46,594 bases of DNA from Phycisphaera mikurensis (GTDB lineage Bacteria > Planctomycetota > Phycisphaerae > WQYP01): the NCBI GenBank assembly GCA_022730455.1, contig DZDI01000003.1:9702-56295 (forward strand), written 5' to 3'. Positions 21,979 to 41,714 of this stretch are shown in pieces. A program made the translations under genes and the position numbers. Every line of letters begins with the position of its first letter. The first letter of the stretch is position 1. Under the pieces are notes generated by a model. That model did not search any database, was not told the DNA's origin, and saw nothing but the letters and a program-made list of their open reading frames with translations.

Positions 21979-22060
21979 CTTTGCCCCGTTCTTGTCCGTT
22001 TTCGCCCGTCACAAATGCTTCATGCACCGTCGCCCGTTCCAACACCGACACCCCGGTAAG

Positions 22061-22088
22061 ATTATAGCCGCCTCACTGGTCTGGCGAA
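22061..22088 (-). promoter_or_regulatory. Candidate internal promoter before the second COX3-like gene
   Basis: On the minus strand a perfect TATAAT (22061-22066) lies 16 bases below TTCGCC (22083-22088), a weak -35. It would give a leader of about 75 bases before ATG 21978. The -10 is seen directly; promoter activity is inference. Confidence 0.35.
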
Positions 22089-22152
22089 TGGCATACTCAG
22101 CGCCGGGCCGATAATTCCGGCCGAGCCGCAGCGGTGAGGGATGCGGCCTGAC

Positions 22153-22578
22153 CTACTTTTTACCGGGTGCGGCTTCGGTGGCCTTGCTGCTCGCATGCGA
22201 TTTGCTCTGCGCTTGATGATAGGCGGTGGTCATAGCCTCAGATTCGCCGCGAATGAGCTGATGCCGATAATTGAAGACATCCAGCGAAGACCAGGAGATA
22301 AAGAGAGTGACGAAGATAAAAGCCAGAGCCATGATGACCACATTGAAAATATGATCGTAGCGGAGGTGCATGAAATAGAGGGCGGCTACGATGGCCATGA
22401 TGGAGGCGATGACCAGCGATACGAAAACATGTGACCCGCCCAGATCGACGGAATTTAGAAGCAGATTAAGAACGGCACAGCCGCAAAGCACAATCCAAAC
22501 GACAATCAGCGTAGGAATAGAAACAATATGGGCCTTCGCCGGCGCGAGGTTTTTGGGGGGGTGATCGTGATCGCTCAT
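22153..22578 (-). CDS. ctaF: Cytochrome c oxidase subunit IV-like protein
   Basis: Small (141 residues) membrane subunit of the caa3-type oxidase, prokaryotic COX4 type. Three hydrophobic segments are visible: about 21-42, 50-71 with the family-typical ALYFMHLRYDH after it, and 80-97. The N-terminus is His/Asp/Pro-rich (MSDHDHPP) and the C-terminus is charged. Start ATG 22578 with TTTGGAGT upstream, the same leader motif as ctaD and ctaE. It lies 36 bases after ctaE. Function in bacteria is structural. Confidence 0.85.
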   Translation of the reverse strand: MSDHDHPPKNLAPAKAHIVSIPTLIVVWIVLCGCAVLNLLLNSVDLGGSHVFVSLVIASIMAIVAALYFMHLRYDHIFNVVIMALAFIFVTLFISWSSLDVFNYRHQLIRGESEAMTTAYHQAQSKSHASSKATEAAPGKK

Positions 22579-22614
22579 GACATGACTCCAAAGAGGATTT
22601 TTGCGGTGCGACGC

Positions 22615-23490
22615 CTAATGGGCCAAATACAACAACGGGAACAGGAACATCCAGACCATATCAACGATGCCCCAATACAGTCCGACAAATTCAACGGGGG
22701 CAAAATAGCTTGGGCCGAAATCGCCGCGAATATTTCGAATCAGGAGCCACACCATCAAGATGATGCCGATGATGACGTGGATGGAGTGCAGACCAGTCAT
22801 CAGGTAGTAGGCCCCAAAAAAAATCTGCACATTATTGGGCTGACTGTAAGGGCTAAGAGGCGCCTTTTGTTTGTCTTTGGCAACGACTCCCGCGGGACCA
22901 ATGGGCGCGGGCGCCAGACCTGAATGGGCAACAATAAATCCCTGTTTCTGAAGGAGTTTGAGATTTTGCCATGGGGCTGCCTCGATGGGCGTAGGCCGGG
23001 CCATGGGTTTAATCAGACCGGCGGGTGGAAGCAGCGGCTGGTTGTTCGGGCCTACGGTGGGGTGATAATTGGTGCCCCAGAGGAGGCGCTGTTGATATTG
23101 GGCATAATATTCAAAACCGTGGAGCACCAAAAAGCCTACCCCACCGCAAATGGTCAAGATAAGGCAAATGGTAATGCCCAGGCGTTTTCCAGTGTGGGCA
23201 AACCGCACACCAAGCGCCATGGTAAAACCGCTGGTAAGCAGGATCAGGGTGTTGATGAGGCCTGCAACCGGATCGAGATATTGGCCGGCAAACTGGAATA
23301 CGTTTGGATGCAAGGCGCGGTAGACGCTGTAGGCACAAAACAGGCCGCTGAAGAGCAGAATTTCCGTGGAGAGGAAAAGCCACATGCCGAGCTTTCCGGC
23401 ATCAAACTGCTGCTGCATCGTATCGAAGTGGTGCGCAAGGTGTTTTTTGACGATCTCTGGGTTGACACCCGGCTGCAACGCTTCACTCAT
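22615..23490 (-). CDS. ctaE: Cytochrome c oxidase subunit III
   Basis: Membrane subunit III of the caa3-type oxidase, 291 residues from ATG 23490 (GGAG 23497-23500 ahead). The N-terminal hydrophilic part is followed by GMWLFLSTEILLFSGLF, the classic COX3 opening, and the C-terminal signature LHSIHVIIGIILMVWLL with LYWGIVDMVWMFLFPLLY. An unusual feature is a hydrophilic insertion of about 65 residues (roughly 130-200), rich in proline, glycine and asparagine, between two membrane helices. It would form a long extramembrane loop, perhaps contacting the cytochrome c domains or ACIII. The reading from TTG 23502 is rejected because that codon overlaps the ribosome site. Confidence 0.93.
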   Translation of the reverse strand: MSEALQPGVNPEIVKKHLAHHFDTMQQQFDAGKLGMWLFLSTEILLFSGLFCAYSVYRALHPNVFQFAGQYLDPVAGLINTLILLTSGFTMALGVRFAHTGKRLGITICLILTICGGVGFLVLHGFEYYAQYQQRLLWGTNYHPTVGPNNQPLLPPAGLIKPMARPTPIEAAPWQNLKLLQKQGFIVAHSGLAPAPIGPAGVVAKDKQKAPLSPYSQPNNVQIFFGAYYLMTGLHSIHVIIGIILMVWLLIRNIRGDFGPSYFAPVEFVGLYWGIVDMVWMFLFPLLYLAH

Positions 23491-23534
23491 TGAAGACTCC
23501 AAAACTGGATGAAAAATTTCACAATCTATCGCTT

Positions 23535-23571
23535 AAAAAAAGTGGTCGAAGTTACAAACCCATCGACCACT
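23535..23571 (-). terminator. Intrinsic terminator between ctaD and ctaE
   Basis: AGTGGTCGA (23541-23549) pairs perfectly with TCGACCACT (23563-23571): a 9-bp stem with a 13-base loop. In the minus-strand transcript the stem is followed directly by six further Us (complement of 23535-23540). This is a textbook Rho-independent terminator, placed inside the oxidase operon after subunit I. It probably acts partially, lowering ctaE-ctaF expression relative to ctaD. Confidence 0.75.
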
Positions 23572-23645
23572 CATCGCGGCCCTACCCAACACACGTCGGC
23601 ATACCGGATGCCGGGACAATAAGAACTAATTTTACTCAGCGGACT

Positions 23646-23699
23646 GGATTTGATCCACCATTCTGATACGGGAAAACCGATCGGGCGGGGATCAAATCC
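23646..23699 (-). promoter_or_regulatory. Long hairpin just after ctaD
   Basis: GGATTTGATCC (23646-23656) and GGATCAAATCC (23689-23699) are perfect 11-bp inverted repeats separated by 32 bases, which contain a smaller foldable core (CGG-GAAAA-CCG). It starts ten bases after the ctaD stop and precedes the terminator. It could protect the 3' end of the upstream mRNA or mark a processing site; no protein site is implied by sequence alone. Confidence 0.55.
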
Positions 23700-23709
23700 G
23701 CAGGCCGCG

Positions 23710-25437
23710 TTACGCATGCGCCGGGGCCACCTCTGGACCCACCGCCGGTTCTGCTTGGGGTGGAACATCCGTTCGCACATAACCGCCTATCGACTCATCG
23801 TATTTAACGTTGGAGTAGTCATAGCAATCTTCGATGGCCAAAGGTGTGTCGTCGAAGTTGTAGTGCGGGGGCGGCGAGGAAGTTGTCCATTCAAGCGTAG
23901 CCGCACCCCATGGATTATCCGGGGCCTTCTTGCCGCGGAAGAGCGAATGGAGCAAGTAGCCCGCCATCATGAGGAATGCCACCAACTGGATGTAGGCTCC
24001 AACCGATGACGCAATCATGTAGGGCTGATACTGCGGGAGATAGCTCGCATAGCGGCGCGGCATGCCCTCGGCACCGACGATCAACTGCGGGAAGAAGGTG
24101 ACATTGACACCGATAAACAGGAGTACGCAGGTGATGCGCCCCATGGTTTCGTTGTACATTTTACCGGTAAACTTGGGCCACCAATAATGCAGGCCGCCGA
24201 GGAAGCCGATAATCGTGCCACCGAACATCACATAATGGAAGTGGCCAACCACGAAGTAGGTATTATGCAGAACCACATCTTCGGCAATGCAGCCAAGCAC
24301 CACACCGGTCAATCCACCGACGGTGAAAAGGATGATGAATGAGAGTGCATAGAGCATCGGCGTGTCGAGCTTGATGGCGCCTTTATACATGGTGGCAAGC
24401 CAGTTAAAGACTTTAACCGACGACGGCACGGCGACAATAAATGTCAGCAAGCTGAAAATGGTATCAAGTTCAGCGGATTGCCCGTTGACGAACATGTGAT
24501 GGCCCCAGACGAGGAAACCAATGAGTGCGATAGCCAGCGAGCTGTAAGCTATGAACTCATAACCGAAGATATGCTTGCGGCTGAACGTTGGGACGATCTC
24601 GCTGACGATGGCCATGGCGGGCAAAATCATGATATAGACGGCGGGGTGAGAATAGAACCAGAAAAAGTCCTGGAAGAGCACCGGGCTGCCGCCGAGGGCC
24701 GCATTGAAGAAGCCGATATGCAGGGTACGTTCCATGATAAGAAGCAGGAACGTAACACCGATGACGGGGGTAGCGGCTACTTGAATGATGGAAGTCGCGT
24801 AGATGCCCCAGAGGAACAGCGGCATACGGAACCAAGTCATGCCTGGCGGACGCATCTTGTGAATGGTGACGATGAAGTTCAGCCCGGTGAAGATGGAGCT
24901 GAAGCCGATGAGGAATATTCCACCCACCATCCAGCATACGTAGGTTTCAGTCTGAATGCTGAAGGGTGTGTAGAATGTCCAACCGGTATCGACCGCGCCG
25001 GCGACCGTGGAGACGATCGCCATGATCGCACCACCCACGTAGAGATAGAAACTAATCAGGTTAAGGCGTGGGAAGGCGACATCCTTGGCACCGAGCATAA
25101 GTGGAATCACCAAGTTGCCAAGGCTGCCGACGATGATGGGGATAAGCACCAGAAACACCATGATGATGCCATGAAGGGTAAAGACCTGGTTATAGTGCTT
25201 ATATGCCGCGAAGCTGGACATGTGCTTGGTCGCGTGAAATATTAAACCCTGGGGCACCAGCAACTGAGTGCGTATGACCTCGGCGAGCATACCACCGATA
25301 AAAAAAGCGGTAAGCGTGGCGACCAAGTACATGAGGCCGATGCGCTTGTGATCCAGCGTAAGCAACCACGACTTAATACCTTTGTCACAATTAAGGTAGT
25401 TGACTTTCGGCTTATCGGGAAAGTTTACAGCAGTCAT
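23710..25437 (-). CDS. ctaD: Cytochrome c oxidase subunit I, A2 type
   Basis: Catalytic subunit I of a caa3-type heme-copper oxidase, 575 residues with about twelve membrane helices. Ligand motifs: [10 protein letters not shown] (heme a), [12 protein letters not shown] (CuB histidine and the cross-linked tyrosine), WGHHMF (CuB pair) and [12 protein letters not shown] (hemes a3 and a). The YSHP string, with no glutamate at HPxVY, places it in the A2 subfamily, in which a Tyr-Ser pair replaces the D-channel glutamate. The C-terminal 70 residues are hydrophilic. Start ATG 25437 with TTTGGAGT eight bases upstream. It has its own promoter candidate and a 20-bp palindrome, and is followed by a terminator, so it may be expressed partly apart from its neighbours. 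Confidence 0.97.
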
Positions 25438-25473
25438 TTTTCAACTCCAAACTCGGGCCTACCAACTCGCCCG

Positions 25474-25502
25474 ATTATAGCATGCTCAAAAGGTCACACC
25501 AA
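25474..25502 (-). promoter_or_regulatory. Candidate internal promoter of ctaD
   Basis: On the minus strand a perfect extended -10, TGC-TATAAT (TATAAT complement at 25474-25479), lies 17 bases below TTGGTG (complement of 25497-25502). The predicted start is near 25467, about 30 bases before the ctaD start codon. Confidence 0.5.
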
Positions 25503-25520
25503 ACTTTTTATTACCATCGA

Positions 25521-25540
25521 TATTGCTGATATCAGCAATA
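25521..25540. promoter_or_regulatory. 20-bp perfect palindrome upstream of ctaD
   Basis: TATTGCTGATATCAGCAATA is its own reverse complement over all 20 positions. It is centred about 63 bases upstream of the predicted ctaD transcription start, a distance typical of class-I activator sites such as those of the CRP/FNR family. There is no loop and no T-run, so a terminator is unlikely. The sequence is certain; the operator role is inference. Confidence 0.55.
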
Positions 25541-25562
25541 AGCACAGCCAATAACCTTCACT

Positions 25563-27050
25563 TCACTTCAACGGCGGTTCTGCACTCGCCGAGGCTTTAT
25601 CACTTAACGAGTTGATGTACCAGATAAGGGAATCAAGCTTCTTCTTATTTTTGGCACCGGCCAGAGTATCGGTATAACTGGGCATGATCGGCTGGAAGCC
25701 GGCGACCACTTTTTTGCCAGGGTAGAGGATCATGAACCGCAGGTATTTATAGTCGGCAACGACGGTTTTGCCGTTCGTGAGTTTAACGTGAGAGCCAGCG
25801 AGATTTTTCCATGTAGGACCAACTCCGGGGCTGCCATTGACCGTGTGGCAGCCAATACACCCCATTGATGCGTAAAATCGCTTCCCTTCAGCCACGAGCG
25901 CGAGCGCCGCCGCCGCCGCCGGCAGCTTGGGCGCCGCTGCGGCAATCTTTTTCGGCGAAGCACTACGGGGCGCCGCTGGCTTACCGGGATAGTCGGGCAC
26001 GGGCGGCCGACTGGCCTTATTGGCGTGAGAACTGAGCGTATTAATATACCAGATGATGGCATCCAGTTTGCGATGCTTTTTGTGAGCCGCCCCGCCGAAG
26101 GTGGTGTAATAATTAGGCATTACATTATTAAAACCTGCCACCATTTTATGGCCGGGATACAAGATGGCCTGACGGAGATAGGCGTAGTCGGCCACCACGG
26201 TCTGGCCGCTGGCGAGTTTGACATGCGATCCGGCGAGGTCTTTCCATGTGGGGCCTGTGCCGGTGGCACCATTGACGGAGTGGCAACCGAGGCACCCCTC
26301 CAGCGCCGCGATTTTTTTACCGACGACGGAAAGAGGCAGAATTTTGCCATCATGTATCCAGATATCCGATGCCTGGGCGAGTTTTTTCTTAAATGCCGGA
26401 ATGGGCATGACATCCACATTGGCGCGCATCTCAGAATGGCCATCTCCGCAGTATTCTGAACACTGAAGAACGAAATGGCCGGTGTGAACAGCCTTCACCC
26501 ATACTGTCATGGTGCGCCCCGGAACAACATCGCGCTGAACGGAAAATTGGGGTATCCAGAAACCGTGAAGCACATCTTTGGAAGTCATGGAGAACTTAAC
26601 AGGGGTATTGACGGGCATATACAGCGTGTTGGTGGCAGCGCCGTCGGGATAGGTGAATTGCCAATGCCATTGCCAAGCCTGCACGCCAATGTTATAGCAA
26701 CCGCTGGGGGGTGTTTGCATATTCATGTAATCTTTAAAGCCTAAGACAAACATCACCATCATGATGATGAGAGGAATGACGCTCCAAGTGATTTCCAATG
26801 CCGTATTGTGGTCGGTAGAAGGATCGGCCACTTCTCGGATGCCCTTGCGAAAACGGTACTTAATGCAGAAGAATACCGCCAGACCGGTAATAAGCACCGT
26901 GAAGAAGACCGATACCCAAAACCAGAGATCCCATAACCACTGAACCTCAGGCCCGAAGGTGGAATCACTATGTGGCAGTCCATACGATCCAATAAGTGGA
27001 TGGGAGAATACATGCCCCAATATTGGCGAAAAAGCGTCGATCGATATCAT
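25563..27050 (-). CDS. ctaC: Cytochrome c oxidase subunit II with two fused cytochrome c domains
   Basis: Subunit II of the caa3 oxidase, 495 residues. Two N-terminal membrane helices (about 30-60 and 80-105) are followed by a cupredoxin domain with a full CuA site (QCSEYCGDGHSEM, about 195-207) and then two tandem class-I cytochrome c domains with heme motifs CLGCH (about 254-258) and CIGCH (about 399-403), each with a MP methionine-ligand region (NVMPNYY; PIMPSYT). Typical caa3 subunit II has one such domain. A Pro/Ala-rich linker separates them. The second domain is close to the free cytochrome at 28069-28830. Start ATG 27050 with AAGGA upstream, three bases after the SCO gene. Confidence 0.95.
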   Translation of the reverse strand: MISIDAFSPILGHVFSHPLIGSYGLPHSDSTFGPEVQWLWDLWFWVSVFFTVLITGLAVFFCIKYRFRKGIREVADPSTDHNTALEITWSVIPLIIMMVMFVLGFKDYMNMQTPPSGCYNIGVQAWQWHWQFTYPDGAATNTLYMPVNTPVKFSMTSKDVLHGFWIPQFSVQRDVVPGRTMTVWVKAVHTGHFVLQCSEYCGDGHSEMRANVDVMPIPAFKKKLAQASDIWIHDGKILPLSVVGKKIAALEGCLGCHSVNGATGTGPTWKDLAGSHVKLASGQTVVADYAYLRQAILYPGHKMVAGFNNVMPNYYTTFGGAAHKKHRKLDAIIWYINTLSSHANKASRPPVPDYPGKPAAPRSASPKKIAAAAPKLPAAAAALALVAEGKRFYASMGCIGCHTVNGSPGVGPTWKNLAGSHVKLTNGKTVVADYKYLRFMILYPGKKVVAGFQPIMPSYTDTLAGAKNKKKLDSLIWYINSLSDKASASAEPPLK

Positions 27051-28839: not shown

Positions 28840-30141
28840 TTATGCGCTTTCCACCGCCAATGCTTCGGGCAATCGCGGATCCCGAAGGGGCAGCAATGAC
28901 TTGTTGGCCAACAGATAAAATGTATGGGCGGTGAACACACCGCCAACGCCGATAACACAGAGCAGGCTGATGATGATTGACAGGGGATGCAGTGGCAACC
29001 AGACCATTTTTTCAGCCGCGGCGCCGATAAGCCTGTACGGGTCAAGCCCGTTGATAGGCGCCGAGAGGACTTTATGCGACTGGAGATAGACAGCGGGCTG
29101 AATCTGCCAGAAGAAATCCAGATATTGAAACACCAGCACCCAAACTCCCCAGAAGACCAAAGTACTGGGACGGCGTTTGGGCCAGCGCGATATCAAACCA
29201 AGAAACGGGATGAAAAAATGTCCGACGATAAGCGCGATAGAAATAGCCGCCCACGGGCCGATCTCTCGGAATTCAAAAAAAGCCGTCTCCTTGGGAACAT
29301 TGGCGTACCAGATGAGAATATACTGGGCGAAGCAGATGTACGCCCAGAACATGACGAACGCTAAGAGCCACTTTCCCATGTCGTGGTAATGTTCTTTATT
29401 CACAACAGGGAGAAAGCCTTGTTTTTGAAAGCCGCGGGTGATGACGGGCAAGGCCGCGAGGAAAGTCACAGCGCAACCGCTGGCGAAGTAGAGCGGTTCG
29501 GCATAGCTGAGCCACTGAGGCTGCAAGCTCATGACGAGATCAACGCCAAAGAGGTTCATGATCCAGCACACCACGAGAAAGCACCAGCCAGAGTGTTTTT
29601 GCATACGAACCAGCCGCGAAACCTGACCATCCTGATCCTGGGCCAGAGACATGCGCCGGTAATAAATGCTTATGCCCGCCAGGACGCCGAGATACACGAC
29701 AACCCGGGCAATGTAGAAGGGTGTGTTGTAAAATAACTGTTTATGGCGAAGCGAAACAGTTGACATCATGTAGGCGTGGCTGGTCCATGGAAAGATCACC
29801 TTCATGCCGATCAGAATCGGGATAAACAGAATCGCAAGAATGATGAAATTATTGGATATAGCCTCACCGATGCGGCGGATGACGTTGCTCCATGCCGCTT
29901 TGAATAAATGATGGGCCAGCACGAACCAGAGGGCGGAAACGGCCAAGGCAAAGAAAAACACCCACGCCGTCAGGTAGCTGCAAAGAAACTGCTTCATGTG
30001 ATCATGAAGGCCAAGACCCAGAAGCGCTGCGAGGATCAGGGCCACGATGCCGGTTGCGCCGGCGAACTTGACGATCTTTGGAGCCATGCGCTCCATGTAA
30101 ATCTGTTCGCGGGTTCCAAGTACTATGTTTTTATCAGACAC
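28840..30141 (-). CDS. actF: Alternative complex III subunit ActF
   Basis: Membrane subunit of alternative complex III (quinol:cytochrome c/HiPIP oxidoreductase), 433 residues with about ten hydrophobic helices spread over the whole length (for example IVALILAALLGLGL, AYICFAQYILIWYAN, IISLLCVIGVGGVF). The string FAQYILIWYANVPKET is typical of ActF. The start is GTG 30141 with AGGAG about ten bases ahead. It follows actE by 30 bases. ActF is a partner of ActC and contributes to the membrane core of the complex. Confidence 0.92.
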   Translation of the reverse strand: MSDKNIVLGTREQIYMERMAPKIVKFAGATGIVALILAALLGLGLHDHMKQFLCSYLTAWVFFFALAVSALWFVLAHHLFKAAWSNVIRRIGEAISNNFIILAILFIPILIGMKVIFPWTSHAYMMSTVSLRHKQLFYNTPFYIARVVVYLGVLAGISIYYRRMSLAQDQDGQVSRLVRMQKHSGWCFLVVCWIMNLFGVDLVMSLQPQWLSYAEPLYFASGCAVTFLAALPVITRGFQKQGFLPVVNKEHYHDMGKWLLAFVMFWAYICFAQYILIWYANVPKETAFFEFREIGPWAAISIALIVGHFFIPFLGLISRWPKRRPSTLVFWGVWVLVFQYLDFFWQIQPAVYLQSHKVLSAPINGLDPYRLIGAAAEKMVWLPLHPLSIIISLLCVIGVGGVFTAHTFYLLANKSLLPLRDPRLPEALAVESA

Positions 30142-30171
30142 GAGAGTCGTGCTCCTGCTACCAAAACCGGA

Positions 30172-30969
30172 CTAACTTTTTGCCTTTTCATTGGGCTTCG
30201 CTTCCACTTTAAGAGGCTTGAGCGTAGTGCGAATGGGATATGGCAATTTGCCTACCGGCACCACTTTTTGTGATCTTTCCAAAGCCCTCACGTACGACAC
30301 GATTGCCCAACGATCGACAACGGGTATCTGGTCTTTATATGACGCCATCGTGCCGACACCGTTGGTGGCGATATTGTAGATCATGCCATCTGAAAGGAAG
30401 GCCACGCCGGGGCCAAGGAGGTCACTTGGGGGAACCCAGTTCCCTGCCGCAGGAGACCCTTCTCTTCTAAGTTTCTGGTCCCACTGATTCACCGGCCCGT
30501 TGCCGCGACCGTCGTATCCGTGGCATGGCTCGCAAAAAATATTAAATTTAACCTGGCCTCTCTCCACAAAGCGTTTCGTCAACGGTATGGGGATATGTGT
30601 AAGCCACTGTCCCTGTCCGTGCACCAGCTTCTGGCCGTAGAGAATGGCATCGTAAATTTTCTGATGGCTAAGCACCACATGCCCCTTGGCCCAATTGTGC
30701 GGGTGAGCACGAGTTTCAGCCTGATTGACATAAATGAAGTCCTGCTGGGCCAGCGTGCCGGGAATGTGCGGACGCATAGCCCGTCCATCGGCAAAGAACT
30801 TGCTTGGCCGCTGCGGCTTGTAGTAGGGCTGCTTGTCCAAGTCTTGAATGATGGCCCAGCGCGGAGTCGTGGTGCGCCGATGGCGGGCCAGACAAATGAG
30901 TCCGAACGGCACCAGCGCGACCAAACCAAGATTGACATATATGTAAAAATTGCGCGTTTTACGTTTCAT
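30172..30969 (-). CDS. actE: Alternative complex III subunit ActE, monoheme cytochrome c
   Basis: A 265-residue monoheme cytochrome c with an N-terminal membrane anchor (FYIYVNLGLVALVPFGLICL), the heme motif CEPCH (FCEPCHGYDGRGNG) and a methionine region MASYKDQIPV near the C-terminus. It matches ActE of alternative complex III in position and layout. It probably takes electrons from ActA and passes them towards the oxidase. ATG 30969 is three bases from the actD stop, with its GAGGAGG ribosome site inside the end of actD, so the two are translationally linked. Confidence 0.92.
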   Translation of the reverse strand: MKRKTRNFYIYVNLGLVALVPFGLICLARHRRTTTPRWAIIQDLDKQPYYKPQRPSKFFADGRAMRPHIPGTLAQQDFIYVNQAETRAHPHNWAKGHVVLSHQKIYDAILYGQKLVHGQGQWLTHIPIPLTKRFVERGQVKFNIFCEPCHGYDGRGNGPVNQWDQKLRREGSPAAGNWVPPSDLLGPGVAFLSDGMIYNIATNGVGTMASYKDQIPVVDRWAIVSYVRALERSQKVVPVGKLPYPIRTTLKPLKVEAKPNEKAKS

Positions 30970-30972
30970 AAC

Positions 30973-31545
30973 TCAGTCGCGAACCTCCTCGACGGCTAAG
31001 GCCCCGGCAGTATTGAGCAACTCGGTGGTTACTTTGATGTCAAATTTAGCGTCGCGGGCTTCGATGGCAATAAAGAACCCATCATCGGTGACCCGCTGGA
31101 AACGCTCACTGGTGAAAAGCGGATGCCTGAAGAGCGGCAATTTGCAAAAGATAAAGGTGGCGTAAAAGGTGGTTATCACGCTGGCCAGCACTGTCACAGG
31201 AAAGGCCAGGAACATATGGGGGCCAAGGCCCCAGTATGGTTTACCAGAAACAACAATGGGGTAGTTGTAGGCGTTGCAATACCACGCGAGCGCCAGCATA
31301 CCAATGCAGGATAAGGTGGCGACAACAAAGACCACGACCGGCAATATTGAATTGCGCTGACCCATGACCTTATCCAACCCATGGACTGGAAACGGGCTGT
31401 AGCAATCCCAGCAGTAGTAGCCATTTTTGCGCAAGATGTTGGCGGCATTCATTAAGGACTGCGGATCGTGAAATTCCGCCAGCAGACCGTAGAGTACGGG
31501 CTCTCCGGCCGGTGTGTCCATGGATGGGTTATAGGTAGTCATCAT
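30973..31545 (-). CDS. actD: Alternative complex III subunit ActD (DUF3341)
   Basis: A 190-residue membrane protein of the DUF3341 type, ActD of alternative complex III. It begins with a soluble domain containing YGLLAEFHDPQSLMNAA and the conserved CYSPFPVHGLD, followed by two membrane helices (about 62-85 and 100-130). The two-helix hairpin joins it to the membrane part of the complex. ATG 31545 or 31542 can start. It lies 22 bases after actC. Confidence 0.92.
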   Translation of the reverse strand: MMTTYNPSMDTPAGEPVLYGLLAEFHDPQSLMNAANILRKNGYYCWDCYSPFPVHGLDKVMGQRNSILPVVVFVVATLSCIGMLALAWYCNAYNYPIVVSGKPYWGLGPHMFLAFPVTVLASVITTFYATFIFCKLPLFRHPLFTSERFQRVTDDGFFIAIEARDAKFDIKVTTELLNTAGALAVEEVRD

Positions 31546-31567
31546 AAGTTCCGTTTGAAAAGCTCCG

Positions 31568-33001
31568 TTATTCTACATTCCTGTATTCTTCCGGCAGATG
31601 CGTATGGGACTGCGGAAGAATGGATTTTACCTCAGCCATGGCGACCATCGGCAGATACCGACAGAAGAGTAAAAACAAGGTAAAAAAGAGCCCGAAGCTA
31701 CCGGCAAACATGCCAATGTCGATAAGGGTCGGCGAATACATATGCCATGCGGACGGCAGAAAATCACGAGAGATCGATGTGACGATAATACTGAACCGCT
31801 CGGTCCACATGCCGAAGAGAGCCAGCAAAGCAATCGGAAGCGACAGCCACCAGGTTGTGCGGGCCTTTTTGAACCACAAGGCCTGTGGGATCACGCCGTT
31901 GCAGAACATCATGGCCCAGCCCATCCACCAATAGGGACCAAACTCACGGTTATAATAGGCGAACCGTTCGTAGATATTGCCTGCATAATAGGCAGTGAAA
32001 AATTCTATCAGATAGATGTAGAGAACGATGGATGAAAGCAAGAGCATAAGCTTGCCGAGATTATCCATGTGCCGTTCGGTAATCAGGTCCTTGAGGCCGA
32101 AAAGATGGCGCGCAGGGATCGCTAGGGCTATGACGGTGGCAAAACCGGAAAAAATTGCGCCTACGGTGAAATACGGAGGGAAGATGGTCTCATGCCAGCC
32201 AGGAATTTGGGAGACGGCAAAGTCGGTGCTGACGGTGGAGCTTACGGCAAGCACCAAGGCGCAGGCCAAGCCGCCCATGATGATCATTCCGCGATCATAT
32301 ATTTTCCAATGCCGGGCGGAGCCGCGCCATCCCAAGGCGAAGATGCCATAAAGCGTATGACGGGTGCGGGTTTTGGCGCGATCGCGAAGCGTGGCCAAAT
32401 CCGGCACCATGCCAAAATACCAGAATAAGAACGAAAACGTGCTGTAGGTACTCACAGCCAGCGCGTCCCAGAGCAGCGGGCTGTAGAAATTAGGCCAATC
32501 GCCCATGATGTTGGGATAGGGGATGAGCCAGTAGGCGAACCACGGACGACCCACATGAATGGCCGGATAGATGCCAGCACAGAGTACGGAAAAGACGGTG
32601 GTGGCTTCCGCGAAACGGTTGATGCCGGTACGCCAGCGCTGACGGAACATGAGGAGTACGGCGGAGATCATGGTACCGGCATGGGCGATACCCACCCAGA
32701 AGACGAAATTAATAATATCGAACGCCCAAGCGTTGGGAGAATTGTTGCCCCACACGCCGACGCCGGTAAATACCTGATAGGCAATGGTGAGGAACAGCAG
32801 GCACAACAGCATAAGGGAGATGGTGAAGCACACGTACCATATTTTCGGCGCATGCCGCGCTTCTGGCGTGGCACATACGATTTTGGTGACGGCATGATAG
32901 GTGCCTTCACCGGTAACCAAAGGCTGGCGATTGGTGCAATCCTCGGCCGTATTATCGTAGCCGGTGTCCAGTCTTCCCTGAGGTATCTCAATCGTCGTCA
33001 T
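31568..33001 (-). CDS. actC: Alternative complex III subunit ActC (NrfD/PsrC-like)
   Basis: Polytopic NrfD/PsrC-family quinol-interacting subunit of alternative complex III, 477 residues from ATG 33001. About ten hydrophobic helices are visible after a soluble N-terminus of about 60 residues. Recognisable strings include FWVGIAHAGTMISAVLLMFRQRWR and PSAWHMYSPT, both typical of ActC. It is the presumed site of quinol oxidation. A TTG at 33046 would extend it by 15 residues but lacks support; TAGGATG precedes the chosen ATG. It lies 47 bases downstream of actB. Confidence 0.94.
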   Translation of the reverse strand: MTTIEIPQGRLDTGYDNTAEDCTNRQPLVTGEGTYHAVTKIVCATPEARHAPKIWYVCFTISLMLLCLLFLTIAYQVFTGVGVWGNNSPNAWAFDIINFVFWVGIAHAGTMISAVLLMFRQRWRTGINRFAEATTVFSVLCAGIYPAIHVGRPWFAYWLIPYPNIMGDWPNFYSPLLWDALAVSTYSTFSFLFWYFGMVPDLATLRDRAKTRTRHTLYGIFALGWRGSARHWKIYDRGMIIMGGLACALVLAVSSTVSTDFAVSQIPGWHETIFPPYFTVGAIFSGFATVIALAIPARHLFGLKDLITERHMDNLGKLMLLLSSIVLYIYLIEFFTAYYAGNIYERFAYYNREFGPYWWMGWAMMFCNGVIPQALWFKKARTTWWLSLPIALLALFGMWTERFSIIVTSISRDFLPSAWHMYSPTLIDIGMFAGSFGLFFTLFLLFCRYLPMVAMAEVKSILPQSHTHLPEEYRNVE

Positions 33002-33048
33002 ACTTGCGTCACATCCTAGCGAAGCGGTCGGCTTCCTGTACTCCAATA

Positions 33049-36000
33049 CTACATACTGCCCAGATCCGGCAACGCGCTGGGCGGAATCGCCGGATTAGGA
33101 TTAGAAATTTTCGGCAGATAGGTGGTTCGCGGCTTCGTGAAAAGCATATCGTTGAGCAAACCGTAGCTGCGCGACTGATTTCGCAGTATCGCGACCTTTG
33201 ATGTCTTATCCAATATATCACCAAACACGATGGCTTGGGCGGGGCATGCCTGCTGGCAAGCCATTACAATTTCACCATCGCGGATACGCCGATTCTGACG
33301 TTCCGCCGTGACGCGGGTAAGTTCAATGCGCTGGATGCAATAGGTACATTTCTCCACCACCCCACGCACGCGAATGCTTACTTCCGGATTCCGCTGCATC
33401 GCGACCAGATCATTCATGGGTTTACGAAGCAAATTGGGTTCATAAAGGTTCTGTAACGTGCCGCTGTTGTAGTCCAAAAAGTTGAAGCGGCGGACTTTAT
33501 ACGGACAATTGTTCATACAGTAGCGGGTACCGATGCAGCGGTTGTACGTCATCTGATTCAGACCATCGGCACTGTGACTCGTTGCCCCTACAGGACAAAC
33601 CGCTTCACACGGGGCATTTTCACATTGCATGCACATGACCGGCTCATGTACCGATTCGGGCCGGGTAAGATCCGGCCCGCGGAAATAACGGTCGATACGC
33701 ATCCACTGCATCTCTCGACCCATAAGCACCTGTTCCTTACCGACGATGGGAATATTGTTTTCGGCCTGGCACGCCACCACACAGGCTCCGCAGGCTACGC
33801 AGGCGGTGAGATCGACCGACAGCCCCCACTGGTAGCCGGTATTGTAATGATGCTCATCCCACAAATTAACGGCTGTCTGGCGTTTATGCCCTAGCGATGG
33901 ATTGACCTGCAACTCTTTGAAAGTCGCCATATGCACAAGCTGGGGGATGCGCTCAGCGATGGTTTTTTCACCTGCAATGCCGATGACAAAATGGTTTTGC
34001 GTGGTGGCTAGCTGGTAGGTCTCATTGGTTGGCTTAATCTGGGCCACCGCCATATCCATATGAGTCGTGGGTCGCAATTGGTAGACATCAAAGCCCGTCC
34101 CTGTACCCACCACGCCGGATTTGGTGCGGCCGTAACCGTAGGGCAGAGTCAGGGAATGCTCCGGCTGGCCGGGCAAAGCGTAGACGGGCATTTTGAGCGT
34201 GCGTCCATCGACGGTAATTTCGATCATCTGCGGTTGATGACGACTCAACCCCATTGCCAGCGCGGTATTAGGATTGATCATGGCGGCGTTATCCCAGGTG
34301 AGCCGCGTCATAGGATCAGGTAGTTCCTGAAGCCAGCCGCTGTTGGCCCAGCGCCCATCGTACATTTTGGTATCGTGACGGAAGACGACTTCCATTTCGC
34401 CGGTTTTGAGTTTTACATTGGCAGCGGCGTGCAGCGCTGCCGCGAGAGCCGTGGCCAAACCGGCTGCGTGAACCCGCGCGGGCACGGGAGTAAAGGCGGT
34501 ACCTTCAATATAGCCGTCAAACAGGGCCTTTTTCCATTTCCACTGACTGGATTTAATATTCAGGGCATCTTGCGCAATCTGGTAGCCAGTCAGATGCGGC
34601 TCACCGTTGAGTATCGCGACCACTTCGGCCGGGCTTTTGCCGTTGAAGATCGGCTCAATCATCGGCTGAACGATCGATATGGTGCCGTCATAGGTGCGGG
34701 CGTCGCCCCAGTTTTCCAGGTAATGACTTTCAGGCAGGTGCCAGTCGCATAGAGCTGAGGTTTCATCGTCGTAATCGGCCAGATGGATGCTGGTGGGCAC
34801 TTTGGTCAGCGCGGCGGCAAAATTAATATCGACCGGAGCGGTAAACACCGGATTACCGCCAAGAATCACAAGCGTTTTAACCTTACCCGTGTTCATGGCG
34901 TCGGTTAATTCGGAGATGGCCTGGACATAAGTTTTACGTCCGGCATCCTGAACGTCATAGTACTTCACGGTTCTACCGGTACCGCCCAAGGCATCGTTCA
35001 ATATGGCGGCCAGAGCGTGGACCACAGGTGGCTGGTGATGGCCGACGGTGATAACCGACTGTCCCCGATGGGCGAGCAAATCGGCGGCCATGGCGCTGCA
35101 GAGTTTGGCGTCATAACCCACCGGTGCGGCGGGCATCGTCGGCAGATCACAGGGCAGATTCAGGCCCTGCTTTTTCAATTCTGCCGCCAGCATGGCCACC
35201 GCAATGACAATATCCTTGCCTGCCATCGACATACGATGATTCATGTTTTCGGCTTGCGAACCGGTAATGGTAAAAGTGGATTCAATCGCATAGAACCGAT
35301 TCATCGTTTTGGCCAGAGCGCCGGTGGTCGGGTTGGTCATCCGACGCCCATCGGCGAAATCACGGGCCAATTTCACCGATAGCGGGTCGCCGACAAACAT
35401 GTCAAAATCAATGCTGAGAATAATCTGGGCGGCATGAAGGTCCGGAACTGCCCGCAGCGGCTTGCCAAAAGCCATCTGCAAGCCCATCCGATCGTTGTCA
35501 AACGAGATAGGCTCGTATTCCAACCACTGCATCTGCGGAAGCGTCTTTTGGAATTTTTCGCGCATGTAGCGAAGGCTGGGCGACGAATAGGCTTGTGAAA
35601 GTACGGCCACACCGGCGCCGCCATCTTTCCTGGCGTCGGCCCATTGGCCCTTCCAAAAGGATTGGAACGTCACCCAGTTGCTGTCGATGAATTTGCCACT
35701 GGCCCGCTGAACAACGCCTCTGGCGCGATCGGGGTCGTAGATGGTCATGATGCTGGCTTGGTCATACGAGTCGCTGCCGCCGCGATTCATTGGATGCGAA
35801 GGATTGCCATCGACCTTGATGGGGCGGCCATCATAACTGGTGACCATTAACCCCTGACCGATTCCGGAGATATCCATGGAGGTGGTGTATTGCACCGGAA
35901 CGCCGGGATCGCGATTGGCGGGGCGGTGGGCATAGGGAGCCAAGTCCTGCACTGGGTAGCGTCGACAGCCAGCCAAACCCGCCAGAGCGAATGAGGCGCC

Positions 36001-36162
36001 CATGAGTTTGAGAAAGCGGCGACGATCGCCGGAAAGAAATTCCGATGCGCGCGAGGGAAATTCACGTTCAATGATGGCGGTGAATTCCGGCGTCCCGGCT
36101 AGCTCTTCCAAGCTTTGCCAGTAATGGCGCCCGACAGCAAACTTTTCAGTTAACGATGACAT
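33049..36162 (-). CDS. actB: Alternative complex III subunit ActB (molybdopterin-like plus iron-sulfur)
   Basis: Large periplasmic iron-sulfur subunit, 1037 residues from ATG 36162. The N-terminus is an extended twin-arginine signal typical of this family (ELAGTPEFTAIIEREFP, then RRRFLK at 47-52) ending in LAGC, so it may be lipid-modified at C66. Residues about 90-720 resemble the molybdopterin oxidoreductase fold, which in ACIII carries no cofactor. The C-terminal part is ferredoxin-like with several cysteine clusters (CVACGACVVACQAENN, CMQCENAPCEAVCP, CIGTRYCMNNCPYKVRRF, CTYCIQRI and CQQACP), consistent with three [4Fe-4S] and one [3Fe-4S]. It overlaps actA by 13 bases, which points to coupled translation. 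Confidence 0.96.
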   Translation of the reverse strand: MSSLTEKFAVGRHYWQSLEELAGTPEFTAIIEREFPSRASEFLSGDRRRFLKLMGASFALAGLAGCRRYPVQDLAPYAHRPANRDPGVPVQYTTSMDISGIGQGLMVTSYDGRPIKVDGNPSHPMNRGGSDSYDQASIMTIYDPDRARGVVQRASGKFIDSNWVTFQSFWKGQWADARKDGGAGVAVLSQAYSSPSLRYMREKFQKTLPQMQWLEYEPISFDNDRMGLQMAFGKPLRAVPDLHAAQIILSIDFDMFVGDPLSVKLARDFADGRRMTNPTTGALAKTMNRFYAIESTFTITGSQAENMNHRMSMAGKDIVIAVAMLAAELKKQGLNLPCDLPTMPAAPVGYDAKLCSAMAADLLAHRGQSVITVGHHQPPVVHALAAILNDALGGTGRTVKYYDVQDAGRKTYVQAISELTDAMNTGKVKTLVILGGNPVFTAPVDINFAAALTKVPTSIHLADYDDETSALCDWHLPESHYLENWGDARTYDGTISIVQPMIEPIFNGKSPAEVVAILNGEPHLTGYQIAQDALNIKSSQWKWKKALFDGYIEGTAFTPVPARVHAAGLATALAAALHAAANVKLKTGEMEVVFRHDTKMYDGRWANSGWLQELPDPMTRLTWDNAAMINPNTALAMGLSRHQPQMIEITVDGRTLKMPVYALPGQPEHSLTLPYGYGRTKSGVVGTGTGFDVYQLRPTTHMDMAVAQIKPTNETYQLATTQNHFVIGIAGEKTIAERIPQLVHMATFKELQVNPSLGHKRQTAVNLWDEHHYNTGYQWGLSVDLTACVACGACVVACQAENNIPIVGKEQVLMGREMQWMRIDRYFRGPDLTRPESVHEPVMCMQCENAPCEAVCPVGATSHSADGLNQMTYNRCIGTRYCMNNCPYKVRRFNFLDYNSGTLQNLYEPNLLRKPMNDLVAMQRNPEVSIRVRGVVEKCTYCIQRIELTRVTAERQNRRIRDGEIVMACQQACPAQAIVFGDILDKTSKVAILRNQSRSYGLLNDMLFTKPRTTYLPKISNPNPAIPPSALPDLGSM

Positions 36163-36878
36163 GTTTCGCAATCCGTTAATTGTTTGACACTTGGAATGTG
36201 ATATCTCTTCATGAGGTACTTACCGAGATTATGGGGCAGCATCTGGACCGTAAGCCCAAGATCGTTCGCCAGCTTCACCTTGTTTTTTCCGGTCCAATTT
36301 AAGTTGGTAACCTGATTGCGCGGGCGGAGAAATGGTGCGGGGTTGCGATGGCAATTCAGACACCACGCCATATTGAATGGCTTAGCTTGATACACCCGGG
36401 TCATTTCATTCACCTTGCCATGGCACACCAGACAACTGATACCAGCATTGATGTGGGCTTCATGGTTGAAATAGACGTAGTCGGGCAGGTCATCCACCTT
36501 GATCCATGGGATCGACATCCCCGCCAAACTCTTTTTACCGGTACCGTAGCTGTTGCGAACGGCTTGGAGTTCGCGGCTTTTAGAGGCAATGAGCGAATGG
36601 CAGTTAAGACACGTTTGGGTTGGCGGCAAGGCGGCGTAGGCTGCACGTGCCACATCGGTGTGGCAGTATTCGCAATTGATGCCTAATTTGCCGGCGTGGA
36701 GGGCGTGACTGAAGGGCACTGGCTGCCGGGGTGCGTAATTAACGTTTAACGTTCGGGCACTGCAGCCATAGGCGATGAGGATGACCAGATATATGGGGAT
36801 GATCAGGGTGGATACCACAAACACTTTCGTGAGCCAGTCTGACCATTTTGGAAACACAAAAAAAGGACGTTCGCTCAT
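36150..36878 (-). CDS. actA: Alternative complex III subunit ActA, pentaheme cytochrome c
   Basis: Multiheme subunit ActA, 242 residues from ATG 36878. One N-terminal membrane helix (about 16-38) is followed by five CxxCH motifs: CEYCH, CLNCH, CLVCH, CLNCH and CETCH, the last at the extreme C-terminus. This is the pentaheme type of ActA. It collects electrons from ActB and feeds ActE or the free cytochrome. It is the first gene of the respiratory operon; the candidate promoter lies about 130 bases upstream of the start. An 11-residue longer reading has no ribosome site. Confidence 0.95.
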   Translation of the reverse strand: MSERPFFVFPKWSDWLTKVFVVSTLIIPIYLVILIAYGCSARTLNVNYAPRQPVPFSHALHAGKLGINCEYCHTDVARAAYAALPPTQTCLNCHSLIASKSRELQAVRNSYGTGKKSLAGMSIPWIKVDDLPDYVYFNHEAHINAGISCLVCHGKVNEMTRVYQAKPFNMAWCLNCHRNPAPFLRPRNQVTNLNWTGKNKVKLANDLGLTVQMLPHNLGKYLMKRYHIPSVKQLTDCETCHR

Positions 36879-37013
36879 TTTACTAGCCGCAATCCTTAAA
36901 CAAGCCGCCACCTATTGGCCGGGCATTAATACGAGGCTCAAGCGACGACTTTCCAACAATCATCACAACGTCTCAAAAACCGAGATTGTGAAACTTTGCA
37001 CAAAGTCTGGACG

Positions 37014-38847: not shown

Positions 38848-39315
38848 ATGCGGTATCAATCGATTCTACGCTCGGTACTCTCGACGGCAGTGCTTCCATC
38901 GGCCTTTGCGGCGGCGCTTTTTTTGGGTGGATGCGCCCAACCACAATCCAACATGTCAGCGCCGAGTCTCTACAGCCAGCTCGGTGGCGAAAAGGGAATC
39001 ACCACAGTGGTACACACCTTTTTGATCAACGTAAGCAAAGACCCGCGTATTAATGGCCGATTCGCGCATGCCAATTTGGCGCATCTTCAAATTGCGCTGG
39101 TCGATCAAATTGGCGAACTTTCCGGTGGACCGCAGGTATATACCGGGCCAGATATGTACCAAGCCCACAAAAACATGCACATCACGGATGCCGAGTGGAA
39201 GGCATTTATGCAGGATTTTTGCAACACGCTTAAACAGGAGCGCGTTGCCCCCTTGGCCCAGCAGGAACTGTTAGGCTTGCTGACGCCGATGAAGTCCGAC
39301 ATCGTGGGCCACTAA
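38848..39315 (+). CDS. Exported lipoprotein truncated hemoglobin
   Basis: A 155-residue group-I-type truncated hemoglobin with a lipoprotein signal: hydrophobic residues 7-28 and lipobox LGGC (C29). The globin core has the GG turn (LYSQLGGEKG), the DPRI segment and the proximal histidine H107 in the expected QAHKNMHI context. The B10 tyrosine that usually stabilises bound oxygen appears to be Leu59 (TFLINV), so ligand chemistry may be unusual. Truncated hemoglobins are mostly cytoplasmic; here the protein would be anchored outside the inner membrane. Start ATG 38848 with AAGGAG upstream. The RnfC/RnfD-like pair follows on the same strand after 135 bases. Confidence 0.88.
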   Translation: MRYQSILRSVLSTAVLPSAFAAALFLGGCAQPQSNMSAPSLYSQLGGEKGITTVVHTFLINVSKDPRINGRFAHANLAHLQIALVDQIGELSGGPQVYTGPDMYQAHKNMHITDAEWKAFMQDFCNTLKQERVAPLAQQELLGLLTPMKSDIVGH

Positions 39316-39450
39316 TCCAGTCATTGGTCGTGGGACTCTTAACTGATGGGCAGTTGCAGACGATTAGATTAAAGACGGTCTGGGCGCCCGGGTGGGTCGT
39401 CGTTGGATGGCCGCTCGCCTGAAGTGCGCGATCGCATAAAATGGCGCACG

Positions 39451-40548
39451 ATGCAATCAATTACTCACCGATTTTTGCCACTGCTGAACCCGATGGTGGG
39501 AGGCATTTATTTGGGCCCGCCGGGTTGGAAGTTGTCGGCGATTCCGCCAGCACCGGCGGATAATGCACCACCGTCTTTGGAGCGGCCGACCAATCGGTTG
39601 GAAATGCTCGCCTATCTGAATAACATCGCTTTGCAGCCAACCCATCCTCAAATACGGGCTTTGGTTGCACAGATCAATGCCATTGGCGACCGGCAGGTTA
39701 GCAAACTCATCATAAGTGGATTATCGCTGGTTCCCGAGTCACGCATCGGAGCCATTTGCGCCCAACTGGACGCCGAGGCCATTGTGGCCGCGATAGAACT
39801 TATCGCGCAGGTATTTTCGTCACCGCCAACGCTCCTGGTCTTTGACCGGAGTGATCGCCGCGATTTGCGTTCTCTGCTTCGTATGGCACGCAAGCGCTGC
39901 CGATTGCTGGGCCTGGTGACACGCTATCCAGCGGCGCATCCCGCGGTTCTGGCGCGGATTACAAGCGGTTGCCGCGCCGTGGATCCCGTAGACGAGGGGA
40001 TAGTGTCGGTCGATCTGCTCTCGTGCCTGCTTCTGGGCCGGGCGTTGCAAAACCGTGCGCGTTCTTCGCACCGTCCGGTGCAGATTTTCACCACCGGCCA
40101 TGTTCCGCGCGTGATATGGGCTGCCATTGGTGCACCGGTACACGATATTTTTCTACAGGCTGGCATTGACCCGGGGGCGATGCAATGTATTGCCAATGGC
40201 ATGCTCGCCGGCAGAGAATTAAATCTATCGACCGCATTGATGCAATGGGATATTGAGACGCTTGCCCTGCGTCCATTTCCAAAATTGGAAGTGGCGGTGG
40301 ATTGCATCCGGTGCGGTTGGTGCGTACAGAGCTGTCCTACGGCTATTAACCCAGCCGCGCTCTATGCATCGCAACGCCTGCATGAAGGGGTAGCGCTGGC
40401 GGACCGGCGCGATTCATTGGCGTGCATTGATTGCGGTTTGTGCAGCTATATCTGCCCGTCGCGGCTGCCCTTGTCTGCATCCATCGCAGAGATGCGCAAC
40501 CAGATAGAATTTAACCTGGTATCGGCGGCCGGAGGCTCATCGATATGA
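39451..40548 (+). CDS. RnfC-like iron-sulfur protein with degenerate flavin region
   Basis: A 365-residue RnfC homologue. The opening NPMVGGIYLGPP corresponds to the family GGIH-PP motif. The central region aligns with the RnfC flavin/NADH domain, but the conserved NGAECEPY string is SGLSLVPES here, so the electron-entry site may be lost. The C-terminus keeps two full [4Fe-4S] motifs, CIRCGWCVQSCP (about 285-296) and CIDCGLCSYICPS (about 325-337), in the order and spacing of RnfC. No membrane helix. The start is placed at ATG 39451; TTG 39403 is an alternative, and neither has a good ribosome site. It overlaps the next gene by ATGA, so the pair is translationally coupled. Genuine RnfC is about 440 or more residues. 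Confidence 0.82.
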   Translation: MQSITHRFLPLLNPMVGGIYLGPPGWKLSAIPPAPADNAPPSLERPTNRLEMLAYLNNIALQPTHPQIRALVAQINAIGDRQVSKLIISGLSLVPESRIGAICAQLDAEAIVAAIELIAQVFSSPPTLLVFDRSDRRDLRSLLRMARKRCRLLGLVTRYPAAHPAVLARITSGCRAVDPVDEGIVSVDLLSCLLLGRALQNRARSSHRPVQIFTTGHVPRVIWAAIGAPVHDIFLQAGIDPGAMQCIANGMLAGRELNLSTALMQWDIETLALRPFPKLEVAVDCIRCGWCVQSCPTAINPAALYASQRLHEGVALADRRDSLACIDCGLCSYICPSRLPLSASIAEMRNQIEFNLVSAAGGSSI

Positions 40549-41714
40549 CGAGCATCAGCACGACTGAAAGCGCGTCCAGCGCCAACATGGTGCACCGACC
40601 GCCATTTTTAAATTGGCCGGTTGCCCGGCGTGAGTTTTACCAATCCATCATGATCGCGCTCAGTTTGCCGTTGCTTTGGGGCATAGGTATTTTCGGCGTG
40701 CGCGCATTGCTGATTATTTTCAGCACGGTGCTGGCAGCCGTGCTTACGCAGGTGGTGTTGCGTCGCGTTACACGTCGTTGTGCGTGGATGCCGTTCAACC
40801 ACACGATTATCTCGGCGATGATGCTGGCCGCGTTGTCGCCTGAGAGTTGCCCCATTTGGCTCTCTGCCGCAGCGGGCGTGGTCATGACAGGTTTAATATT
40901 CCTGGCTGGACTGCCGGGACGGCATCGGGTTCATGCGGGGTTGCTGGTCGCCCTGCTGTTGAGCCTGGCGGTGGGGCAATCCCAAAGCGGGCCGATATTG
41001 ATAAGAGACACCTTGCTGGTGGGCCATTTGACGCGAACCGTCACACTTGGTCATTATCGCTGGCCCCGGCACACCACGGTCCGCGGCAACGATGCGGTGA
41101 CGCTTCCGATGCCCGATTATGTGCTATCCCGAACCCTGCGCAGGGTATCAGATCGGCCCGCGAGTCAAAAAGCCCATAACGAGCTGAATAACGCATTTGG
41201 CGCGCTGTTGCCACCGCCACCGGCATTATTTCTTGGTGCCATGCCGGGACGTGTAGGAGTGGTGGGTGTTTTGGGCATTCTCATCGGGGGCCTGATGCTG
41301 GGATATCGAAATATTCTCAATCCCGCCGCGTGGGGCATGTTCATTTTCTTCGTACTCTTGGGACTGTTATTTGGCCCGTTATCCGCCCACGCGTTACATC
41401 ACGAATTCTGGCAAAGCCTGGGCGGGATATGGTATTTACCTCCGGAGCGGGCCATTTATCTGCTGTACGTGGAGCTTTTTACTGGCGACTTTCTGTTTGC
41501 GTCGGTATTTCTTTTGGCTATGCCAGGGACGCTACCACTTAATCCGCGGGCGCGCTGGGTGTTTCTACTTGCCGCTGGCCTGCTGGCGGCGCTGTTTTCC
41601 CGCATTGCCCTGCCACTGCCTCCGGCCACGACTGCCATCTTAATGATGATGCCACTGGCACCGTGGCTGGATTCCATTTTGCCCCGGCGCAGTTGGCTGG
41701 GAGATCAGCGTTGA
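40545..41714 (+). CDS. RnfD-like membrane protein lacking the FMN-attachment threonine
   Basis: A 389-residue integral membrane protein of the RnfD/NqrB family, with hydrophobic helices from about residue 37 to near the C-terminus. The family segment LFLGAMPGRVG-VGVLGILIGGLMLGYR is well kept, as is FTGDFLFASVFLLAMPG. The preceding SGAT motif, whose threonine carries covalent FMN in Rnf and Nqr, is FGAL here. The protein may therefore lack FMN and act as a quinone- or heme-linked membrane partner of the RnfC-like protein. No RnfA, B, E or G lies nearby. Its 3' end overlaps the plsY 3' end by ten bases, tail to tail. Confidence 0.82.
   Translation: MTSISTTESASSANMVHRPPFLNWPVARREFYQSIMIALSLPLLWGIGIFGVRALLIIFSTVLAAVLTQVVLRRVTRRCAWMPFNHTIISAMMLAALSPESCPIWLSAAAGVVMTGLIFLAGLPGRHRVHAGLLVALLLSLAVGQSQSGPILIRDTLLVGHLTRTVTLGHYRWPRHTTVRGNDAVTLPMPDYVLSRTLRRVSDRPASQKAHNELNNAFGALLPPPPALFLGAMPGRVGVVGVLGILIGGLMLGYRNILNPAAWGMFIFFVLLGLLFGPLSAHALHHEFWQSLGGIWYLPPERAIYLLYVELFTGDFLFASVFLLAMPGTLPLNPRARWVFLLAAGLLAALFSRIALPLPPATTAILMMMPLAPWLDSILPRRSWLGDQR

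Follow-up and report, generated by a model that had tools for sequence, protein, structure and literature searches.

A lone RnfC-like/RnfD-like gene pair, apparently stripped of its flavin sites, in one planctomycete class

Known systems and the window's pair

The Rnf and Nqr complexes are defined by a chain of flavins. In solved Rnf the electron path, followed from outside to inside, runs over the flavin mononucleotide (FMN) of RnfG, the FMN and then the riboflavin of RnfD, cluster 2 and cluster 1 of RnfC, and the FMN of RnfC to nicotinamide adenine dinucleotide (NAD); RnfC buries the N-terminal arm of RnfD, which ties it to the membrane (PMC9588780). NqrA, an RnfC homologue that sits docked on NqrB, has lost its cofactors (PMC12174285), and the two-subunit NQR/RNF-like flavinylation systems are reduced relatives with an NqrB/RnfD domain that lacks the flavinylation Thr (Meheust 2021, PMC8238504; PMC11334425). 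The subject here is a pair of genes in which the C and D halves stand by themselves; it occurs in ten families of one planctomycete class, and no description of it was found in the literature searched. An earlier note, made from sequence letters, had drawn attention to it in a stretch of 46,594 nucleotides of Phycisphaera mikurensis (contig DZDI01000003.1, from a planctomycete assembly of 3.2 Mb in 394 contigs); this whole stretch is referred to as the window.

Of the Rnf electron path, the window's pair keeps, by sequence, just the two clusters. It resembles the Rnf complex (RnfABCDGE) in its homologous C and D subunits, in gene order and folds, and in the two [4Fe-4S] clusters of C. It differs in that its family has no RnfA/E, FMN_bind or ApbE, that the C-like protein is without an FMN/NADH site and the D-like protein without the covalent-FMN Thr and the riboflavin ligands, and that both score far below the NCBIfam cut-offs. 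In Na+-NQR, by comparison, NqrA has lost FMN and both clusters and NqrB keeps both flavins, whereas the window's RnfC-like protein appears to have lost FMN only and its RnfD-like protein the flavin ligands; counterparts of NqrC to NqrF were not found for the window's pair (NqrC type searched as PF04205, NqrD/E type as PF02508). Beside RnfC (FMN and two clusters) and NqrA (none) this would be a third cofactor state. The two-subunit flavinylation systems share with the window's pair the number of subunits and an RnfD-type domain devoid of the flavinylation Thr. Unlike it, they have an NqrC/RnfG-type FMN protein, an association with ApbE, PF00175 and what looks like a flavin site of the non-covalent kind. 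None of these features was found for the window's pair, whose RnfD-like member has an RnfC-like partner instead.

Family assignment and predicted folds

The two genes overlap at ATGA; GGAGG, as a ribosome site, lies just 5' of the RnfD-like start (coordinates in Table 1). The RnfC-like protein matches TIGR01945 (rnfC) with 83.1 bits (E 1.4e-23), short of the curated cut-off of 245.95, and the RnfD-like protein matches TIGR01946 (rnfD) with 25.5 bits, short of 207.05, while exceeding the gathering score of 27.7 for PF03116 (NQR2_RnfD_RnfE) with 81.8 bits (E 7e-23). PF03116 alone is over cut-off in this 389-residue protein; no PF00175 NAD-binding domain is fused to it. AlphaFold models made with homologue alignments are confident, with a predicted local distance difference test score (pLDDT) of 87.6 for the RnfC-like and 85.3 for the RnfD-like protein, and their top matches in the PDB are RnfC 8ahx_C (template-modelling score, TM, 0.72) and RnfD 7zc6_D (TM 0.63/0.79); the top solved-structure matches of both are RnfC and RnfD from the Rnf complexes of Azotobacter, Clostridium and Acetobacterium. 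A strongly conserved N-terminal segment of the RnfD-like protein, PPFLxWPVxRREFY, is the counterpart of the RnfD N-terminal arm.

Cofactor sites of the RnfC-like protein

For comparison, homologues were sorted into "true" and "lone" by the presence of RnfA/E in the genome and not by motif. Two CxxCxxCxxxC [4Fe-4S] motifs are found in 55/55 true and 51/52 lone RnfC proteins, with all eight cluster Cys invariant in the lone-RnfC alignment. The FMN loop GxGG[AG]xFP, present in all 55 true proteins, occurs in none of the 52 lone ones, and NxxExEP, likewise universal among the true, is retained by eight of the lone (seven from family f3, one from f24); the window's protein has neither. A variant of the cluster motif, C..C[GA]WC, shows the opposite distribution (0/55 true versus 42/52 lone). 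The RnfC-like proteins of the window's family (f1) lack the N-terminal RnfC_N domain as well. The RnfC-like protein is accordingly annotated here as one that keeps two putative [4Fe-4S] sites and in which the FMN/NADH site is, as far as its motifs tell, gone.

Cofactor sites of the RnfD-like protein

The riboflavin ligands of Vibrio cholerae NqrB are Thr162, Asn200, Asn203 and Asp346 (PMC9325719, PMC10643135), and these numbers were mapped to alignment columns by motif alignment, not by structural superposition. Among 55 true RnfD the equivalents are kept in 54, 55, 55 and 55, respectively, as against 6, 0, 2 and 11 of 65 lone RnfD; in the window's protein the four positions are Ser90, His127, His130 and Met326. 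Glu of the GET motif follows suit (55/55 true versus 13/65 lone), as does the covalent-FMN position, which is Thr or Ser in all true proteins (54 Thr, 1 Ser), in nine of the lone and in two of the 21 sequences from f1. Within those 21, equivalents of Thr162, Asn200, Asp346 and the GET Glu are absent throughout and that of Asn203 is found in two. The window's RnfD-like protein is thus aligned as having lost all known flavin ligands. The flavin chain appears to have eroded stepwise: some families, namely f3 and f12, retain the Asp of the riboflavin site and the Glu of GET, and f1 keeps almost none of the ligands tested.

Exactly two columns have become mainly His in lone RnfD, and they correspond to window residues 86 and 130. 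The first is Ser in 55/55 true RnfD and His in 46/65 lone proteins (20/21 in f1); the second is Asn in 55/55 true RnfD and His in 48/65 lone ones.

Several of these features had been pointed out in the earlier note. Its ATGA-coupled pair agrees with the coordinates and with the matches to TIGR01945 and PF03116, both [4Fe-4S] motifs and the SGLSLVPES in place of NGAECEPY are borne out by the alignments, and the structure prediction that it proposed as a check led to RnfC and RnfD chains. What it said of flavin-motif loss was too modest, for the GxGGAxFP loop and N-terminal domain of RnfC and the riboflavin ligands of RnfD are gone as well. It had placed the lost SGAT motif at FGAL (residues 218-221). 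This is not the site: when the protein is aligned with the 55 true RnfD, their FMN motif DAVTxATPL lines up with its DAVTLPMP (residues 183-190). That no Thr is available for covalent FMN nevertheless stands, the residue in question being Met189.

The rest of Rnf

The genome-wide searches for Rnf parts covered PF02508 (RnfA/E, the family also of NqrD/E), PF04205 (FMN_bind, RnfG/NqrC type), PF02424 (ApbE flavin transferase) and PF03116 (RnfD type). PF02508 was found in 0/28 genomes of f1, the window's own included, and PF04205 and PF02424 were likewise found in 0/28, with models that do give matches in control genomes. PF03116 is present in 23 of the 28, always in single copy; four of the five negative genomes are 53-76% complete and the fifth (G097) is 92% complete. 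The earlier note had reported RnfA, B, E and G as lacking in the window, which for A, E and G understates the case, since they are missing from 28 genomes, as is ApbE; and other rnf genes with intact flavin motifs, the finding that it named as refuting, were not encountered for RnfA/E or the RnfG type. (The candidate explanation that the missing genes lie elsewhere in the genome is ruled out for A/E and G by the same profile searches.) Because RnfA/E, FMN_bind and ApbE are found in 0/28 family genomes, the pair is classified, from sequence, as a reduced Rnf-derived unit and not as a sodium-pumping Rnf. Annotation pipelines may name such genes as parts of a non-existent Rnf pump.

Distribution, origin and selection

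A survey of 298 genomes of the class found PF03116 in 188 and PF02508 in 103. An RnfD-like gene in the absence of any RnfA/E was counted in some 73 genomes from ten families (weak partial matches in family f14 and in a single genome of f19 are left out of this count, as are three genomes of doubtful status). Occurrence of the RnfD-like gene in 23/28 family genomes and in ten families of the class implies that the pair is not a chance association. Immediately 5' of the RnfD-like gene, an RnfC-like gene is present at almost every locus of f1 and at the majority of those of f3, f12, f18 and f6. In one f3 genome (G211, locus L094) the two are fused in a single open reading frame of 865 residues, with the C domain at 35-454 and the D domain at 497-856, which supports a physical partnership.

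In a tree built from 50 lone RnfC and 15 true ones, a branch with an SH-aLRT (approximate likelihood ratio test) value of 99 sets the lone proteins apart, and the lone pairs are placed, on these sequences, as having a single origin in the class. Two profile searches of 392 genomes of the phylum yielded matches outside the class that, as judged at inspected loci and with weaker matches not included, nearly all have the FMN loop and/or NxxExEP. The exceptions come from f68 and f113, where a short RnfC-like protein stands beside an RnfD/NqrB bearing flavin motifs. Such a cluster, of Nqr type, in f68, another planctomycete family (G413, L189 4168-9999), has at the place of NqrA an RnfC-like gene with a [4Fe-4S] motif and no FMN loop, then an NqrB-like gene with intact flavin motifs, then FMN-domain, fused D/E-like and NqrF-like genes; L190, L191 and L196 likewise have a short RnfC-like gene beside a flavin-motif NqrB-like gene. 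These clusters, which look like an Rnf/Nqr intermediate, resemble the window's pair in the short loop-less RnfC-like protein next to an RnfD/NqrB-like one, and differ from it in the flavin motifs retained by their B subunit and, at L189, in the genes for C, fused D/E-like and F-like subunits downstream.

A contig scan with the window's RnfD-like protein found one sibling only. For both genes, comparison of the window with its sibling L002 gives a nonsynonymous divergence (dN) of ~0.18-0.19 and a synonymous divergence (dS) of 1.2-1.4. The resulting dN/dS is low, roughly 0.1-0.2, showing that purifying selection acts on the pair.

What the pair may do

The reading preferred here, and held with about even confidence, is that the pair, derived from Rnf, forms by itself a two-subunit electron carrier of the membrane, with two [4Fe-4S] clusters at the cytoplasmic face, working without the Rnf pumping parts for which tests were made. 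The RnfC-like protein would still be held to the cytoplasmic side of the membrane by the RnfD-like one. A low-potential donor in the cytosol, of the ferredoxin type, would feed electrons into the two clusters, which would hand them on at the same face to quinone or to a partner in the membrane or the cytosol; ions would not be pumped, and no relay of flavins would lead outwards. Lone pairs make the function of RnfC plus RnfD without the pump testable. Several observations weigh against such a carrier. Neither a quinone site nor a donor or acceptor was identified for the pair. In some f6 loci and in the f17 locus the RnfD-like gene has no adjacent RnfC-like gene, so that the RnfD-like part may work alone. 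Flanks compared at many loci in the ten families contain no partner gene common to all, the neighbours varying by family (the globin; sugar-phosphate isomerase, dxr and rseP; ispH; or nothing shared).

A bolder, and rather unlikely, proposal is that a flavin-free RnfC-RnfD is a new membrane redox device, in which the emptied RnfD fold with its riboflavin-pocket His would use a different cofactor or would act as a redox-gated channel, with the two [4Fe-4S] clusters in its RnfC-like partner as the driver.

It is unlikely that riboflavin or FMN is still held non-covalently, by a different ligand set, in what would then be a shortened output arm of Rnf. In its favour, the RnfC and RnfD folds are predicted to be kept and the riboflavin Asp and GET Glu are kept in some other families of the class. 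In Acetobacterium woodii Rnf, however, either of the riboflavin-ligand substitutions N123A and D249A alone abolishes activity (PMC11889175), and the window's protein lacks equivalents of N123, D249 and more.

The earlier note had proposed that the pair exports electrons across the membrane and re-reduces the extracytoplasmic heme of a lipoprotein globin. The gene in question, a truncated-hemoglobin lipoprotein with the lipobox LGGC, does lie 135 bases upstream on the same strand, as the note had it. A globin is present in single copy in 19/28 family genomes. It stands directly 5' of the pair in 14 of those 19 (genera g1, g2, g5 and g7, or four of the eight carrying genera) and elsewhere in the genome in five (g3, g4, g6 and g10). 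The gene flanks outside the globin-pair trio differ among the adjacency genera, which makes the adjacency meaningful; we take it to be real and the globin to be an optional part of the cluster, as gene order would have it. As for the co-occurrence that the note wished to see checked, globin and pair stand together in most globin-bearing genomes of the family, but the adjacency is not general; in other families of the class, pairs of this type have no globin beside them. The adjacency hints at shared regulation or a stress context and is no demonstration of electron transfer. Export is argued against by the apparent loss of the flavin relay across the membrane: with the FMN and riboflavin ligands lost and ApbE and RnfG not found, no known membrane-crossing carrier is left, and the RnfD-like protein has no evident site for a substitute cofactor. 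The note's interpretation thus survives in its first half, a reduced Rnf-derived pair that does not pump sodium, and export to the globin we consider a doubtful addition to it.

Just as doubtful is a second route by which electrons could still cross, another membrane cofactor (heme b or quinone) replacing the flavins near His86 and His130. The two His-rich columns are the only ones of their kind; one coincides with the riboflavin Asn, and the other is a single turn away from the Thr that contacts riboflavin. Yet the two His are not co-conserved (both in 36 lone RnfD, one only in 22, neither in seven, two of these gapped), and there are exceptions within the family. A bis-His heme b, considered as a specific candidate, is unsupported, since His86 and His130 do not covary.

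More improbable still is an RnfD-like protein turned into a channel for a small molecule or ion, gated or sensed by the iron-sulfur protein. RnfD and NqrB are structurally related to ammonium and urea transporters (PMC9588780, PMC12174285), the flavin pockets appear vacated, and the next fold match after RnfD is a urea transporter, at a non-significant E of 0.18. Any RnfD would be expected to give this weak match, and there is no substrate evidence.

In f6 the RnfD-like gene lies 5' of dxr and rseP (genomes G016, G041, G062 and G121; loci L080, L103, L148 and L157), mostly with RnfC-like and sugar-phosphate-isomerase-like genes upstream, and in G048 (L081) it lies directly 5' of ispH. A role as electron donor to cytosolic iron-sulfur enzymes, for example of the methylerythritol phosphate (MEP) isoprenoid pathway, could be read from this, and we think it very improbable: the window's family does not show the arrangement, dxr does not require an iron-sulfur donor, and only about two independent events are involved. 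Finally, that the pair is a decaying remnant without function, as the motif losses might suggest, is scarcely credible and is refuted by purifying selection, alongside the invariant Cys and retention across ten families.

Locus layout and neighbouring genes

Table 1. Features of the globin and RnfC-like/RnfD-like locus (window positions)
Feature	Position	Strand	Basis
Bac_globin lipoprotein, exported truncated-hemoglobin type	38848..39315	+	PF01152 E 4e-11; start ATG 38848
RnfC-like dicluster iron-sulfur protein, without RnfC_N domain or FMN loop	39451..40548	+	TIGR01945, AlphaFold; start ATG 39451
SGLSLVPES in place of RnfC NGxECEPY flavin/NADH motif	39715..39741	+	alignments; family consensus NLxxxQPES
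[4Fe-4S] motif 1, CIRCGWCVQSC	40303..40335	+	Cys invariant in lone-RnfC alignment
[4Fe-4S] motif 2, CIDCGLCSYIC	40423..40455	+	Cys invariant in lone-RnfC alignment
RnfD-like membrane protein, without flavin ligands, 389 aa	40545..41714	+	PF03116, AlphaFold
His86, at invariant RnfD Ser on transmembrane helix 3 (TM3), one helical turn from riboflavin-contacting Thr	40800..40802	+	
His130, at riboflavin-contacting Asn (V. cholerae NqrB Asn203; C. tetanomorphum RnfD Asn124)	40932..40934	+	
DAVTLPMP, true [ST]xATP covalent-FMN motif position, Met189 for FMN Thr	41091..41114	+	alignment
FGAL, SGAT site as proposed earlier; non-homologous to SGAT	41196..41207	+	alignment
Val239 for invariant GET-motif Glu, FMN side (Glu185 of C. 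tetanomorphum)	41259..41261	+	alignment
Met326 for invariant riboflavin-contacting Asp (Asp346 of NqrB)	41520..41522	+	alignment

An aldo/keto reductase gene lies upstream of the trio formed by the globin, RnfC-like and RnfD-like genes. Farther upstream, the window holds cytochrome c oxidase subunit genes of an aerobic chain (21280-27050) and a set of the alternative-complex-III type (28840-36911), with multiheme cytochrome, NrfD-type and iron-sulfur subunits, the type being judged by gene content.

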